From Nitratireductor luteus (lineage in GTDB: Bacteria > Pseudomonadota > Alphaproteobacteria > Rhizobiales > Rhizobiaceae): a stretch of DNA of 64,000 nt. The notes under the pieces are model-generated. The model had not been told where the DNA came from and did no database searches. It saw nothing but the letters and a program-made list of their open reading frames with translations. Positions 14,254 through 20,623 of the stretch are shown piece by piece (position 1 is the first letter of the stretch; the number at the start of each line of letters is the position of its first letter). The position numbers were made by a program, and so were the translations under genes. The stretch spans positions 186,001 through 250,000 of the forward strand of contig NZ_JAOANW010000009.1 in the NCBI RefSeq assembly GCF_026162365.1, in the 5' to 3' direction.

Positions 14254-14583
14254 CTACGACGAAGCGGCCCGCATCTCGACAAGATGACGTGTCTGGCGCG
14301 CGGCCTCGATCAGCGCTTCCAGGTCCGCCGCCTCCTGGCGCCCGGTTTCGATGCGGGCGGCCGCGTCGGCCAGCGCATGGGCGCCCAGAGCCCGCGCCGA
14401 CCCGGCCAGCGCATGTGCCATTTCGCGACGAACCCTGTCGTCCGCCGCCGCGATGCCGGTCTGAATATCGGAAATCTGCTGCAGGAAAAGCTGAAGCACC
14501 TCGCGCTCCAGCATCTTGTCGCCAAGGGTCTGCCGTTCTAGCTGTATCAGATCGAACAACCGTCTCTCAATCGTTTCGCTCAT
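14254..14583 (-). CDS. Hpt (histidine phosphotransfer) domain protein
   Basis: 109 residues from the ATG at 14583 (MSETIERRLFDLIQLERQ); the open frame upstream to 14721 has no support. The segment MAHALAGSARALGA carries the phosphorylatable histidine in an Hpt-like H-x-L-x-G-S-A-x-x-L-G pattern inside an all-alpha protein. It would pass phosphate between a hybrid kinase and a response regulator. No kinase or receiver gene lies in the window, though a SixA-like phosphatase is about 8 kb away. Confidence 0.82.
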   Translation of the reverse strand: MSETIERRLFDLIQLERQTLGDKMLEREVLQLFLQQISDIQTGIAAADDRVRREMAHALAGSARALGAHALADAAARIETGRQEAADLEALIEAARQTRHLVEMRAASS

Positions 14584-14847
14584 ATAGTCCAGTTCCCGCC
14601 AGCATCGTCCGACTGCGAGAATGGCCGGGAAACGATGTCTGCACAAGGCGTTAATGGAAAGGTCCAAAAATCCTTGCTCCCGCCATATTCGCGTTAACCT
14701 TATGTTTAAACTTCTGGGCATCGTCGTGAAAACGTGTTTCCAACGATTGCCTGTGCCACTACGATACGGGTTGGCGAGTTTTGGGCGTAGTGTGGGTTAC
14801 GAGGACCCTAGCGGGAAGACCCATGCCAGTAACAGGGTGACGGCGGA

Positions 14848-17800
14848 ATGGCTCGAAACACAACGAAAAAAACGGCACCGCAGGACGACTTCGCGAAAGA
14901 GCTTGAAGAAGCGCTTGAGCTTGAGGTGTCCGATTTTGCACTCACCGACGATGGCGACCTCGATATAGCCGCTTCGATGGAGGATCTGGAGGCACAGATA
15001 TCCATGGCGGCCGAGGAACTGGCCAGGGAAGGTCGCTCGGATAGCGACGCCCCTGCCAAGACCGGGAAAGAGCCGAAGAGAGCCACCCTAGAGCCGGCGA
15101 AGGCCGAAGCTTCCAAAACGAAGCATACGGATTCGGATCACCCGGCCCCGGAGGCTGCCGGGGAAACAGCGTCACGGCAGGACAATCTGTCGCCGGCCCC
15201 CGTCACACCCTCCGCTTTCTCGCCTGCCAATGACGACCAGCAGCGTTCCCACGATACGTTCGGCAGCAAACTTGCCAGCCAACCGCCGCGTACCACCTAC
15301 TGGATGGCCGCCGTGCTTTCCGTATTGTGGGTCGCCGGCGCTGCGATGTTGGGCCACTTGCTCTATTCGCCCGAAATCTGGCGGATTCGTTCGATCCAGG
15401 GCATTTTGGCTGCACCGCATACAATCGGCCTGTTGGTCGGCGCGCTGGTTCCTGTTCTGCTCTTCTGGGCCTTCGCCATCATGGTGCGCCGCGCGCAGGA
15501 GATGCGTATCGCAGCCCAGCAGATGGCCGAAATGGCCTTCCGCCTTACCGAGCCCGAAAATCTGGCGCAGGATCGTGTGATGATGGTCGGCCAGGCCGTG
15601 CGCCGCGAGGTGCAGGCCATGGGCGACGGCATCGAGCGCACGCTGGCGCGCGCCGTCGAACTTGAGACCCTGGTCCACACCGAGGTCAACGAACTGGAGC
15701 GCGCCTATTCCGAAAACGAGACCCGCATCCGCTTGCTGGTCGACAGCCTCGGCAGCGAGCGTGAAGGCATCGTCAGCCACGCCGAGCGTGTCCGCGCGTC
15801 CATTACCGGAGCCCACGAGATCCTCAAGGAGGAACTGGACTCCGCCGGCGAACAGATCCGCATCAGCGTGGACAGCGCCTCGCAGCGCCTCACCTCCTCT
15901 CTTGCGCAATCCGGCGACGGGCTGGTGGAACGCATCAGCAGCACCGGCGAGAACATCTACAAGGCCGTGGACGAACGGGTCGCAACGATCTCCGATCGCA
16001 TCACCACGTCCGGCGATGCCGTCGCCAAACTGCTCGACACACGCATCGCCTCGCTCGGATCTTCGAGCGACGACCTCATGCAGCGCCTCAGCGAGGCCAC
16101 CGCCGGCATCGGTCAGACGATCGACCACCGCGCCGAGGAACTCACGTCCCGCGTCCGCAAGTCCGGCGACGACGTTTCCGGTCTGCTGGATTCGCGCATT
16201 GCCTCCCTCGCTGCCTCTGGCGACGAACTGGTGCGCCGTCTCGACGAAACCACGGCCGGCGTCGGTCAGGCCATCGGCCACCGCGCCGAGGAACTCACGT
16301 CCCGCGTCCAAAAATCCGGTGACGACCTTGCCGGCATGTTGGACGCGCGCATCGCCTCCCTCGGCACCTCCGGCGACGAGCTGGTGCGCCGCCTCGACGA
16401 GACCACGGCCGGCGTCGGCCGGCTCCTCGACGACCGCGGCAACGAGCTTACAAATCGCGTGCAGGCAACGGGCGACAGCGTGGCGGGACTGCTCGACGCG
16501 CGCATTGCGTCCTTGTCGGACCGCACCGACGAAGCAACGCGCTCGCTGAGCGAGACCTTCGACAGCCGGGTGTCCGGCCTCTTGTCGTCGGTAGGCGATG
16601 CCTCCAGCAGGCTGAACGCCGAGTTCGACACGCGACTCGGCCAGCTTGAACGGTCGCTTTCCGAGCGCGGACAATCACTTATCGAAGAATTCTCGACTCG
16701 TGCCGAAGCACTCGACACGGGCATGCAGAAGCTTAACGCGGCCCTCGATGCGCGTGCGCGCAGCATCAACGAGTCGCTGGTCGAGCGCAGCCGGGAGATC
16801 GCCGACACCTTCGCCCGTGGTAAGCAGGATGTGTCGGCAGCGATCGAAAGCGGCAAGTCGGCGATTGACAGCGAGCTTGCTGATATCGTCGCCTCCACCT
16901 CGATCATGCTTGAAGGTAAGGCCGAAGATTTCGCCCGCCGCCTTGAAGACGGCCAGGCCATGCTCAGCGCTCGCCTCGACGGCGATCTTGGCCGGTTCGA
17001 TTCCATTCAGGCCCGCATGGACGAAGCCGTCGGTCGTCAGGTGCAGGCCTTTTCCGAGAACCAGGACAGACTGGCCACCCTCCTTGAAGCCGATCTGGAA
17101 AAGCTCAACGAAGCGCGCAGTGCGTTCCAGGAACGCATCGAAGGCCAGTTGGAGAAGCTGTCGGAGACGCGCAGCACGTTTGCCGCGGCACTAGACCAGG
17201 ATATCGCCAAGATCGGCGAACGCCGCGAGGAACTGACCGCCGCTATCGGCGCCGATATCGAGCGCATCAACGCCGCCTTCAGTGCCCATACCGGCGTGAT
17301 CGAAGAGCGCACCAGCACCATGGAGAAGGCGCTCACGGTCGGCGTCAGCAATGTGCGCCAGACGTTGGAAAACAGCGCCGGAGCGCTGGCCGGCGCACTA
17401 CGCGAAAAGGTCCTGGAAGCTACTACCTCGCTCAATGAAGAGGCCGGAAAGGTGCTCGATGGCGTCGATGCCCGCATCCAGACTCGTGTCGAGCATGCGG
17501 CGCAGACGCTCGGCCAGCAGGTGGATGCCATCGACCGCACCTTCGACGGCGCTGCCGAGCGGATCGCCACCCATACGTCGACATTCGGCGAGCATTTCGC
17601 GGATATCGACAACCGCATCGCAGCGCGCGTGTCGGAGACCGCGCAAACGCTCTCCGGCAGGGCCGAAGAAATATCCCGCACCTTTGAGCAGGTGGACAAC
17701 CGCATCGCGGCGCGCACCCACGAAACGGCGGAAACGCTGGCTGCCCGTGCCGACGCCCTCGCCCGCACCTTCGAGGAGACCGATCAGCGGATCATTGCCC

Positions 17801-19776
17801 GCACGCATCAGACGTCAGCCGAGCTCGACGCCCGCGCGGCGGCCATTGCCGAAACGCTGGGCACGGTCGAAAACCGGCTCAAATCTACCGCCGGCTCCAC
17901 TGCGTCGGCCTTCGTCAACGGCATGCTGGAAGTAGAAAAGAAGCTGACCGACAGCGCCACCCGCACCCGCGCCACGCTTGACGAGGGTCTGGGCGATGCC
18001 GAGACGCGCCTGCGCTCGTCGGCCGAACAGGCGGCACAGCACGTCAGCCAGCAGCTTTCGCGCACCCAGGCCGACCTCGTGTCCACTGCGGACACGATCG
18101 GCCAGACCTTCGCCGCCGTCAACGAGCACATCACCAAGCGCACCGGCGATACCGTCCGCACGCTCGACGAACGGACCCAGGAACTCAATGCCATGCTCGC
18201 CGGGCGTACCTCCGAGATTTCGCGCATTCTCGACGAGAGCGCGCGGCCGCTGGTCGAGCGGTTCGAGGCAAGCGGTGGTGAACTGCAGCAAAGCATTCGG
18301 GCTATCACAGACGAGACCGCCGAACGCCTTCAAAAGGAGAATGCCGCCCTGATCAACGCGCTGGCAGCCCGTACCTCCGATACGGTCGGCGCACTCGAAC
18401 AGGCCCGCAACAGGCTCTCGGGCAACGTGCAGGAGCTTCTGGCGCAGCTTGACAATTCGGGCGATCGCCTGGGTCAGCTTATCGAGCAGGCTGCCCAGAA
18501 CCTGAGCGACGTCGACAACCGCCTCGTCTCCACCACCAGCAACTTCGCCGCCAACGCGGAAAAAGCTGCCGAGACGTTCTCCAACTCCGCCAGCCTTATC
18601 AATGCCAATTCGGGTCGCCTGGCCGATTTCTCGGAGCGCACCCTGCGTGAGATCTCGGCTATCGCCAGCCGGTTCGAAGATCACAGCCGTGTTCTGGAAA
18701 GCGCATCGGAACTGCTCGACAAGGCGCAAAGCGGACTCTCCACCACACTGGAGGGGCGCCAGCAGGAGTTGCAGGCACTCGCCAGCGGCCTCGTCGAGAA
18801 ATCGGAGAACCTGCAGCGCGTGATGCAATCCTTCGAAGGATATCTGGGCCGCGCGCTCGAAACGGCGGAAGGCCGCACCAAGCAGTCTGTCGAATCCATC
18901 CGCGACGCCATTGGCGAAGTCGTGGAGGCGGCAACCGAACGCTTCGCCGGCGCGACCGACGATATCCGCCGCACCGCCACGGAAATCCGCTCCGAGTTGG
19001 AGGCGACCCGTGCCGACATGAAGCGGGGCATCGCCGAGCTTCCAGAGGAAGCCAAACAGTCCACTTCCGCCATGCGTCGCGCCATAACGGAACAGATAAA
19101 CGCACTCAAGGAACTTTCTGACATCGTTGCCAAATCAGGCAAGATGCAGAACCCGGCCAAGCCCGATGCAAACATGTCCTCACCGGCCGTGGAGCAATCC
19201 CGCCCGCCGCCTGCGCCCCAGCAGCCACGGCCGCAGCAGGCCCCCGTGTTGGAGCGCCCGGCTCCTGCCCCGGCCCGGCCGCAGCCGCGCACCGCGGCCC
19301 AGCCCGCTCCCGAACCGGCTCCCGAGGCCCAGCAGGGCGGCGGCTGGATAAGGGACCTTCTGCGCAGCGCGTCCCGCGAGGAAGAGACCGTCAATCGCAG
19401 CAAGTCGGCGGAAGCCGACCGTTCTGCGCTCCATGTGGTGGAATCGCTCAACTCCCTTTCCGTCGACATCGCCCGCGCCATCGACCATGACGCTTCCGTC
19501 GAGCTTTGGGACCGCTATCGCCGCGGCGAACGCAACGTCTTCACCCGTAGGCTCTATACGCTGAAGGGCCAGCAGACCTTTGACGAGATCCAGCGCAAGT
19601 ACCGGGGCGATGCGGACTTCCGCAAGGCGGTCGATCAGTACTGCCGCGACTTCGAGAAGCTGCTCGCCGATGTGTCGCGTTCGGACCGTGACAACATCAT
19701 GACGCAGACCTATCTCACCTCGGATACCGGCAAGGTCTATACTATGCTGGCTCATGCCAGCGGAAGGCTCCGTTGA
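14848..19776 (+). CDS. giant coiled-coil membrane protein, probable growth pole ring (GPR) homologue
   Basis: 1642 residues. Order: acidic soluble N-terminus (1-145); two membrane spans at about 150-172 and 190-212; roughly 1200 residues of predicted coiled coil with apolipoprotein A1/A4/E-like periodic helices and three near-identical 51-residue repeats (399-551); a Pro/Gln-rich linker (about 1450-1505); and a compact conserved-looking C-terminal domain (1506-1642) with WDRYRRGERNVFTRRLY. This architecture matches the Agrobacterium tumefaciens growth pole ring protein, which is about 2100 residues and needed for polar growth. Assignment is by architecture, not alignment. Transcription ends at a strong terminator 52 bases downstream. 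Confidence 0.72.
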   Translation: MARNTTKKTAPQDDFAKELEEALELEVSDFALTDDGDLDIAASMEDLEAQISMAAEELAREGRSDSDAPAKTGKEPKRATLEPAKAEASKTKHTDSDHPAPEAAGETASRQDNLSPAPVTPSAFSPANDDQQRSHDTFGSKLASQPPRTTYWMAAVLSVLWVAGAAMLGHLLYSPEIWRIRSIQGILAAPHTIGLLVGALVPVLLFWAFAIMVRRAQEMRIAAQQMAEMAFRLTEPENLAQDRVMMVGQAVRREVQAMGDGIERTLARAVELETLVHTEVNELERAYSENETRIRLLVDSLGSEREGIVSHAERVRASITGAHEILKEELDSAGEQIRISVDSASQRLTSSLAQSGDGLVERISSTGENIYKAVDERVATISDRITTSGDAVAKLLDTRIASLGSSSDDLMQRLSEATAGIGQTIDHRAEELTSRVRKSGDDVSGLLDSRIASLAASGDELVRRLDETTAGVGQAIGHRAEELTSRVQKSGDDLAGMLDARIASLGTSGDELVRRLDETTAGVGRLLDDRGNELTNRVQATGDSVAGLLDARIASLSDRTDEATRSLSETFDSRVSGLLSSVGDASSRLNAEFDTRLGQLERSLSERGQSLIEEFSTRAEALDTGMQKLNAALDARARSINESLVERSREIADTFARGKQDVSAAIESGKSAIDSELADIVASTSIMLEGKAEDFARRLEDGQAMLSARLDGDLGRFDSIQARMDEAVGRQVQAFSENQDRLATLLEADLEKLNEARSAFQERIEGQLEKLSETRSTFAAALDQDIAKIGERREELTAAIGADIERINAAFSAHTGVIEERTSTMEKALTVGVSNVRQTLENSAGALAGALREKVLEATTSLNEEAGKVLDGVDARIQTRVEHAAQTLGQQVDAIDRTFDGAAERIATHTSTFGEHFADIDNRIAARVSETAQTLSGRAEEISRTFEQVDNRIAARTHETAETLAARADALARTFEETDQRIIARTHQTSAELDARAAAIAETLGTVENRLKSTAGSTASAFVNGMLEVEKKLTDSATRTRATLDEGLGDAETRLRSSAEQAAQHVSQQLSRTQADLVSTADTIGQTFAAVNEHITKRTGDTVRTLDERTQELNAMLAGRTSEISRILDESARPLVERFEASGGELQQSIRAITDETAERLQKENAALINALAARTSDTVGALEQARNRLSGNVQELLAQLDNSGDRLGQLIEQAAQNLSDVDNRLVSTTSNFAANAEKAAETFSNSASLINANSGRLADFSERTLREISAIASRFEDHSRVLESASELLDKAQSGLSTTLEGRQQELQALASGLVEKSENLQRVMQSFEGYLGRALETAEGRTKQSVESIRDAIGEVVEAATERFAGATDDIRRTATEIRSELEATRADMKRGIAELPEEAKQSTSAMRRAITEQINALKELSDIVAKSGKMQNPAKPDANMSSPAVEQSRPPPAPQQPRPQQAPVLERPAPAPARPQPRTAAQPAPEPAPEAQQGGGWIRDLLRSASREEETVNRSKSAEADRSALHVVESLNSLSVDIARAIDHDASVELWDRYRRGERNVFTRRLYTLKGQQTFDEIQRKYRGDADFRKAVDQYCRDFEKLLADVSRSDRDNIMTQTYLTSDTGKVYTMLAHASGRLR
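16042..16520 (+). repeat. 153-bp tandem repeats inside the coiled-coil gene
   Basis: Units begin with CGCAT(C/T)GCC at 16042, 16195 and 16348, exactly 153 bases apart, and a fourth diverged unit begins at 16501. Each unit encodes 51 residues running RIASL...GDELVRRLDETTAGVG...HRAEELTSRV...KSGDD...LLD. Nucleotide identity between units two and three is high, suggesting recent duplication or gene conversion. The period keeps the reading frame. Confidence 0.85.
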
Positions 19777-19886: not shown

Positions 19887-20623
19887 ATGACGGGAGAGCC
19901 GGTGCATCGCGGGGTGGCTGACGCCGTCGGCGCCGAACTGGTGGGACTGATCGAGGACTGCAACTCCGTTGGCAACGCCGTATTCGGTGTTCGCGACCGG
20001 CTTGCCGTCGAACATGTCACCTATCACTGCATCGCGCGGTATCCGGGCCACCTCCACGCTCCGTATATCCGCAGCACATATCCTGCCGAATGGATCGCCC
20101 GCTACGTCCTTGAAGATTATCTGAACATCGATCCGGTGGTGCTCTTCGGCTTTGAGACAGCCCGCCCCTTTTTCTGGCACCAGCTTTCGCTCACCCCACG
20201 GCAGCGTGAGCTGATGCAGGATTCGCTGACCCACGGCCTTGGCGACGCAGGTATTCCATCCCCATTGTCAGCGGACCAAGGCGCGCCCTGCTCAGCCTGA
20301 ACGTGAAATGCTCTCAGTCCGACTTGGTCAGCTATGTGGAGAAGAACGCTGCGATGCTCATGCGTATTGCCAGCGCCATCGACGAAAAGGCGGCTCCGGC
20401 CTTGTTGCCCGAAACCGAAGCGTATCCGGTGCTCGCCCCACGCGAATGCGAATGCCTGCTCTGGACGGCGCGCGGCAAGGACGCCAAGGCTATCGCCGCC
20501 ATATTGGTCCTGTCCGAATTCACCGTCCGAAGCTATTTGCGCTCCGCGCGGCAAAAATTGAAAAGCAGCACGCTTTCACAAGCTGTGGCCAAGGCCATAA
20601 ACGCACGTCTGATCGCTCCCTGA
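19887..20623 (+). pseudogene. LuxR-type autoinducer-binding regulator split by a -1 frameshift
   Basis: The first frame (19887-20300) encodes an autoinducer-binding domain with YPAEW, ARY, IDPVV, FFWHQL and HGLG, that is, the Trp, Tyr, Asp, Trp and Gly positions that contact acyl-homoserine lactone. It loses register at 20251-20253. The second frame, traceable from about 20252 to 20623, continues as YSIPIVSGPRRALLSL and ends in a LuxR helix-turn-helix (LAPRECECLLWTARGKDAKAIA, with SEFTVRSYLRSA). Restoring one base after GCAGG would give about 245 residues, the normal LuxR size. No luxI gene is nearby, so it would be an orphan receptor. It could also be a sequencing error. Confidence 0.85.

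Follow-up and report, generated by a model that had tools for sequence, protein, structure and literature searches.

The gene at positions 14,848 to 19,776 of the window, by which we mean the whole 64,000-nucleotide stretch of Nitratireductor luteus DNA analysed here, encodes a protein of 1642 residues that is almost certainly the syntenic, single-copy orthologue of RgsE of Sinorhizobium meliloti and GPR of Agrobacterium tumefaciens, and so a putative scaffold of the new pole. As such it is an ordinary member of the studied GPR/RgsE family. It adds one more orthologue, and the wider comparison with relatives across the class matters more. The features of the locus are as follows.

14254..14721, minus strand: divergent Hpt-domain gene, a conserved neighbour of the family (Pfam Hpt, E 2.4e-7; synteny)
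14722..14847, unstranded: intergenic region of 126 bp separating the Hpt and GPR-like genes
14848..19776, plus strand: GPR/RgsE-family protein, 1642 aa, ATG start (open reading frame, single copy, homology, synteny)
15307..15363, plus strand: first of the two predicted transmembrane spans, at about residues 154-172 (hydropathy)
15430..15486, plus strand: second of the two predicted transmembrane spans, at about residues 195-213 (hydropathy)
15490..19152, plus strand: apolipoprotein-like long helical region, residues about 215-1435 (PF01442, 11-residue periodicity)
19165..19341, plus strand: Pro/Gln-rich low-complexity linker, residues about 1440-1498 (sequence inspection)
19342..19374, plus strand: short conserved segment GWIRDLLRSAS at the junction of linker and C-terminal domain (C-terminal alignment of the named loci)
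19411..19773, plus strand: conserved C-terminal domain, residues about 1522-1642 (alignments and profiles; model pLDDT 74)

The anatomy claimed in the original prediction, namely 1642 residues with two N-terminal spans, an apolipoprotein-like helix, a Pro/Gln-rich linker and a C-terminal domain, was recovered in full. Hydropathy analysis gives two spans, and the highest 19-residue mean elsewhere in the protein is 0.94. The Pfam family Apolipoprotein (PF01442) matches the protein in 8 stretches with an E value of 9.7e-45. Over residues 241-1440 the hydrophobic periodicity has its maximum at 3.64 residues with a power of 8.15, compared with 1.54 +/- 0.19 in 30 shuffles and a power of 1.59 at 3.5 residues, and the top self-similarity lags are 51, 22, 18 and 11. 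The long region of about 1200 residues is thus mainly an 11-residue amphipathic helix and not a run of plain heptads. The C-terminal domain of about 120 residues forms a strongly conserved unit across the family alignment. When the genome of the window was searched, the protein was found in one copy.

For the assignment, the most direct comparison is with the S. meliloti record CP090106.1 (locus L179), in which a protein of 2089 aa has exactly the published length of RgsE, and the upstream gene order is that of the window: YcjF, a hypothetical protein, folK, folB, folP, DUF922, a 2Fe-2S ferredoxin and the divergent Hpt gene. The C-terminal 137 aa of the window protein are 72% identical to this RgsE (E 5e-66), and the N-terminal 300 aa are 54% identical to it over 182 residues around the spans (E 2e-62). 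The low-complexity coil gave alignments at 28-29% identity. In five genomes that we take for Agrobacterium, a profile of the C-terminus found one match each, with E values no higher than 2.1e-64 and in frames of 2173-2400 codons; the label of this genus (code g18) comes from one marker family, the telomere resolvase TelA, which we take to be a mark of the Agrobacterium linear replicon. Synteny is common to both loci fetched from these genomes (L122 and L123). Among the best 80 of at least 562 relatives, the closest named ones of the window C-terminus are Chelativorans, Mesorhizobium and Nitratireductor species, which makes the host a Chelativorans-like organism within Rhizobiaceae in the broad sense. 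The matches to RgsE at both ends, the same gene order and the profile matches in putative Agrobacterium together argue for a GPR/RgsE orthologue, and the GPR assignment originally proposed is borne out. It is very improbable that the protein is instead an unrelated long coiled coil, or an apolipoprotein of the lipid-droplet type that only resembles GPR. Spurious coil matches do occur, and the profiles of ZorA, SpiroCoCo, exonuclease VII and PspA all match the window protein; however, both ends of the protein, which lie outside the coil, match RgsE strongly, and the gene order is conserved.

The two characterised relatives differ from the window protein in several respects. RgsE (SMc00190, 2089 aa) shares the gene order, the two N-terminal spans, the apolipoprotein-like coil and the C-terminal domain, but it is 447 residues longer. 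GPR (Atu1348, 2115 aa) has the same architecture as far as published in PMC8262873, and was compared with the window protein through architecture and profile; between GPR and the window protein, only GPR has a demonstrated ring (about 200 nm), hexamer and phenotype. The occurrence of such a protein outside Agrobacterium, to which the original prediction drew attention, is already in print for S. meliloti (2020, PMC7327166) and Brucella (2023, PMC9938171), because RgsE is a known GPR homologue that was also localised in Brucella. According to the part of PMC7327166 available, the homologues have members in all Rhizobiales families, the polar location, phenotype and interactions of RgsE are described, and overproduction of GPR or RgsE leads to extra growth zones or branches. 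The accessible text of PMC9938171 places Brucella RgsE at the new pole, and that of PMC8262873 states that C-terminal deletions of GPR block complementation.

By analogy with these proteins, the likely role of the window protein is that of a membrane scaffold at the new pole. The two N-terminal spans would hold the protein in the inner membrane, and both of its termini would face the cytoplasm. The long stretch of amphipathic helix would likewise be cytoplasmic, probably running along the membrane or self-associating, and partners or adjacent subunits would most likely be bound by the conserved C-terminal domain, which is carried on a flexible linker. Both the same action as RgsE and GPR in the host of the window and the function of the C-terminal domain are what we infer from the studied relatives.

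The shorter length of the window protein had suggested a minimal form of this organiser, and this does not hold. In 64 relatives with a set start, the length ranges from 1324 to 2486 aa with a median of 2067.5, and 9 of the 64 are shorter than 1642; the relatives in Rhodobacterales are shorter still, with 330-418 codons. These 64 are the proteins, out of 81, whose start could be set by a pattern rule, consisting of 63 named loci and the window copy (L001). The 17 left out comprise six truncated at a contig end (L006, L011, L014, L024, L058, L060), two apparently interrupted (L048, L054) and nine in which the start pattern was missed (L029, L049, L051, L061, L063, L064, L065, L072, L081; three of them from Brucella). 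Those nine frames are closed at both ends and measure 1511-1699 aa from the first Met, and six of the nine also fall below 1642. Conservation of the membrane region and of the C-terminal domain places most of the length difference in the stretch between them. Median lengths are 2068 for Rhizobiales (73 proteins), 885 for Caulobacteraceae (16) and 986 for the remainder (33), in a phylogenetically non-independent sample. The lengths outside the named loci, those of the 40 sampled loci, Caulobacteraceae and Rhodobacterales included, are stop-to-stop and hence upper bounds.

We then consider how far the C-terminal domain extends. A profile of 15 rhizobial C-termini matched in 143 of 387 alphaproteobacterial genomes at E <= 1e-3, and a wider profile of 42 sequences (A2) matched in 155 of the 387, belonging to 100 of 264 genera, at E <= 1e-4. 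There was one A2 match in 147 of the 155 genomes and two or three in the remaining 8 (G355, G455, G490, G588, G589, G603, G625, G663), which may indicate paralogues in some lineages. Four genomes of 0.9 Mb (G353, G453, G600, G661) retain a family member, with frames of 647-679 codons. Across a draw from the phylum, A2 matched in 93 of 299 genomes at E <= 0.01. Only two of these lie outside the class, and we regard both as noise, with E values of about 0.008 and frames of 45 and 100 codons. Of 40 loci fetched across the class, all chosen for having a domain match, every one encodes a protein with the domain at its end, 1-22 residues before the stop, and 36 have at least two hydrophobic peaks near the N-terminus. 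Earlier work, in the part of PMC7327166 available, reported more distant homologues outside Rhizobiales only in Emcibacterales and Rhodospirillales. One of the families here, f13, was identified as Sphingomonadaceae through a named Sphingomonas match, and its reading as Caulobacteraceae was rejected on the same match. No NCBIfam model naming the family was found for six distant members, and the best Pfam E value for 15 C-terminal domains was 0.013.

A model of the C-terminal domain is all helical with moderate confidence (mean pLDDT 74, pTM 0.64). A sequence search of the PDB gave three weak matches (E 0.14-0.18), and a fold search with the model gave 80 matches at E <= 10 and none at E <= 0.001. 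In a second structural comparison the best match, with a Z of 7.2, was to a Habc helical bundle, perhaps just a common helical-bundle arrangement. The predicted model therefore has no significant match in solved structures.

From the named loci, a divergent Hpt gene was found upstream in 69 of 80, some of the 80 being truncated at a contig end. In the 40 sampled loci it was found in 16, made up of all 8 from Rhizobiales and 8 of the 32 from elsewhere; 13 of the 16 were detected by blastp with the window Hpt protein and 3 by a homologue profile (one weak, E 1e-4). The S. meliloti and Sphingomonas records also contain this neighbour, and one histidine column is conserved in 82 of 82 aligned Hpt homologues. 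A functional partnership, in which the Hpt protein passes phosphoryl groups to or from a pole-growth regulator and thereby tunes the scaffold or a shared promoter, would agree with these observations, yet we consider it rather doubtful. No Hpt-profile match was obtained in the 16 Caulobacteraceae loci or in 11 further loci, 10 of which are Rhodobacterales; two Sphingomonadaceae genes at the Hpt position have no Pfam match; and the histidine, judged by eye, is apparently lost in the Sphingomonas neighbour. A shared neighbourhood does not establish a shared function, and no Hpt protein is among the RgsE interactors in the accessible text of PMC7327166. No paper mentioning the pairing came up in a text search that combined Hpt with RgsE or GPR. 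At one locus of a distant family member (L144, 4178-6844), an Hpt-profile match falls in a frame of 889 codons that lies immediately upstream on the same strand and is possibly a hybrid kinase.

Neither CtrA-type nor GANTC sites occur at 14601-14960 around the start codon of the window gene. Within 350 bp upstream, GANTC is present in 47 of 63 relatives, against a background fraction of 0.43, and TTAA-N7-TTAA in 0 of 63. On the other side of the gene, a LuxR-type regulator (19887-20623, plus strand) is split, with the autoinducer-binding part (19887-20300) and the DNA-binding part (20303-20623) in different frames. In eight close relatives, matches to both parts lie downstream of the GPR-like gene, and they share one frame in the two that were checked (L003, L005). 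The split gene is either a pseudogene or a sequencing error.

TipN of Caulobacter crescentus has two N-terminal spans and interacts with ParA. It is described as a marker of the new pole that sits in the membrane and has a large coiled coil in the cytoplasm (PMC13170164, PMC5347347), and as 882 aa long (PMC13170164). In the passages available, GPR is stated to have 'similarity to' TipN (PMC8546619) or is called 'analogous' to it (PMC13170164), and TipN is reported missing from most alphaproteobacterial genomes (PMC5182065). A domain-level comparison of GPR and TipN was not found in the literature searched, which was accessible in part and did not cover the first GPR paper (Zupan 2019).

We identified Caulobacteraceae (f55) by the identity of MipZ to a solved chain, which is 66-67% in three genomes and 91% in G714. 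A2 matched in 46 of 60 genomes of this family at E <= 1e-3, with one such match each, and 14 of the 60 had no match at this threshold. In 16 Caulobacteraceae loci, all selected for a domain match, two or more N-terminal hydrophobic peaks are present and the domain lies 1-5 residues from the end. The comparison of Rhizobiaceae with Caulobacteraceae by hhalign gave P 96.1 for the C-terminus and P 97.1 for the N-terminus, with reversed and mid-coil controls at P 1.3 or less. When Caulobacteraceae were compared with an intermediate group (f11, f105 and neighbours), the values were P 98.5 and 99.5, respectively, and over both of these pairs the controls reached at most P 2.6. The highest control over all pairs was P 19.3, for the reversed C-terminus of Rhizobiaceae against a Rhodospirillales-like group, and the weakest true pair was the N-terminus of Rhizobiaceae against Sphingomonadaceae at P 8.5. 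As the latter is below the highest control, the Sphingomonadaceae N-terminal pair alone shows nothing.

The gene abuts cysD-cysNC in two Caulobacter loci, those closest to C. crescentus in MipZ identity (91% and 80%), and we take tipN to be CC1485. In C. crescentus, cysD and cysNC are CC_1483 and CC_1482 (PMC4551563). The closest locus (G714) encodes a protein of 885 aa from the first Met, close to the length of TipN. No cysD-cysNC match was found beside the gene in the other 14 of the 16 loci, two of which share the genus code. A search of the candidate TipN from G714 against named plasmid records gave no match, and the one Caulobacteraceae family protein tested has no Pfam match. From its size, its anatomy and its neighbourhood in 2 of the 16 loci, we infer that the Caulobacteraceae protein is TipN. 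By profile, this putative TipN is related to GPR at both ends. Compared with the window protein, TipN is half as long, the 16 loci of its family lack the Hpt neighbour, and MreB is present in the three Caulobacteraceae genomes tested, unlike in Rhizobiales.

Another family (f21) was identified as Rhodobacterales through Ruegeria and Tritonibacter matches at 50-56% identity, the match of one of its members being the hypothetical protein TM1040_RS04205 of Ruegeria sp. TM1040. The ten loci fetched encode proteins with two N-terminal spans and the terminal domain, but with a very short helical part compared with GPR/RgsE. Their C-termini gave P 90.8-96.7 against three groups, 69.4 against Sphingomonadaceae and 74.8 against Caulobacteraceae, and their N-termini gave P 91.5-96.6, with reversed controls at most P 2.4.

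MreB was also considered. No full-length MreB match was found in 7 of 7 Rhizobiales genomes tested, the window genome included. Their best MreB-family matches lie in frames of 538-1148 codons, with E values between 1.3e-14 and 3.3e-17; these pass the Pfam cut-off but are partial, and we took them for other, presumably actin-fold, proteins. The best in the window genome (E 3.3e-17, 638-codon frame) is of this kind, as a polar grower would be expected to show. On the other hand, MreB is matched over its full length in 29 of 30 other carriers, with E values of 6e-138 or better, the exception being G331.

These comparisons probably reflect one class-wide, mostly single-copy family that includes TipN, in which an ancestral landmark of the new pole had its coil lengthened for polar growth in the MreB-less Rhizobiales. 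This reading extends the explanation of the window protein as a GPR/RgsE orthologue and does not contradict it. It is favoured by the distribution of A2 in the class and in Caulobacteraceae, the N-terminal peaks and terminal domain shared by the 16 Caulobacteraceae loci, and the high P values between Rhizobiaceae and Caulobacteraceae relative to their controls. The position beside cysD-cysNC and the size of the candidate TipN point the same way, as do the greater median length in Rhizobiales and the distribution of full-length MreB. In addition, an excess of TipN leads to ectopic poles, as stated in the part of PMC5347347 available, much as an excess of GPR or RgsE leads to extra growth zones or branches. 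Against this, TipN is represented by a candidate Caulobacteraceae protein, 14 of the 16 loci lack cysD-cysNC and 14 of the 60 genomes lack a match, and the Sphingomonadaceae N-terminus scores below a reversed control. Long forms, of 1979-2418 codons, are also found in MreB-bearing genomes, and therefore length does not strictly follow MreB loss.

A more specific proposal, which we offer tentatively and would not bet on, is that GPR/RgsE, TipN and the short Rhodobacterales protein all derive from one new-pole landmark, ancestral in Alphaproteobacteria and made of a membrane hairpin, a helical spacer and the C-terminal domain, with the divergent Hpt gene as its original partner. The spacer would vary in length between about one hundred and more than two thousand residues, the Rhizobiales form would have been lengthened into a polar-growth organiser after the loss of MreB, and the minimal form proper would be that of Rhodobacterales. 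The evidence that suggests the wider family comes from profiles. If TipN and GPR/RgsE do share both ends and their origin, two separately studied markers of the new pole would become one testable system, study would centre on the C-terminal domain, and its biochemistry would be made tractable by a naturally occurring version of about 350 residues. The conserved Hpt neighbour would be a candidate signalling input.

Some minor observations were made in other records. RgsE is annotated as 'kinesin' in CP090106.1. In this record of S. meliloti Ak57 (2038034-2062384, L179), which is labelled plasmid pSymB and is 3.72 Mb long, rgsE and cytochrome bc1 genes are both present, and therefore the labels of chromosome and pSymB may have been exchanged. 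A 1.0-Mb member of Rhizobiaceae (G182) has two equal-scoring telomere resolvase matches on contig 1 (351066-353819), about 2 kb apart and on opposite strands.
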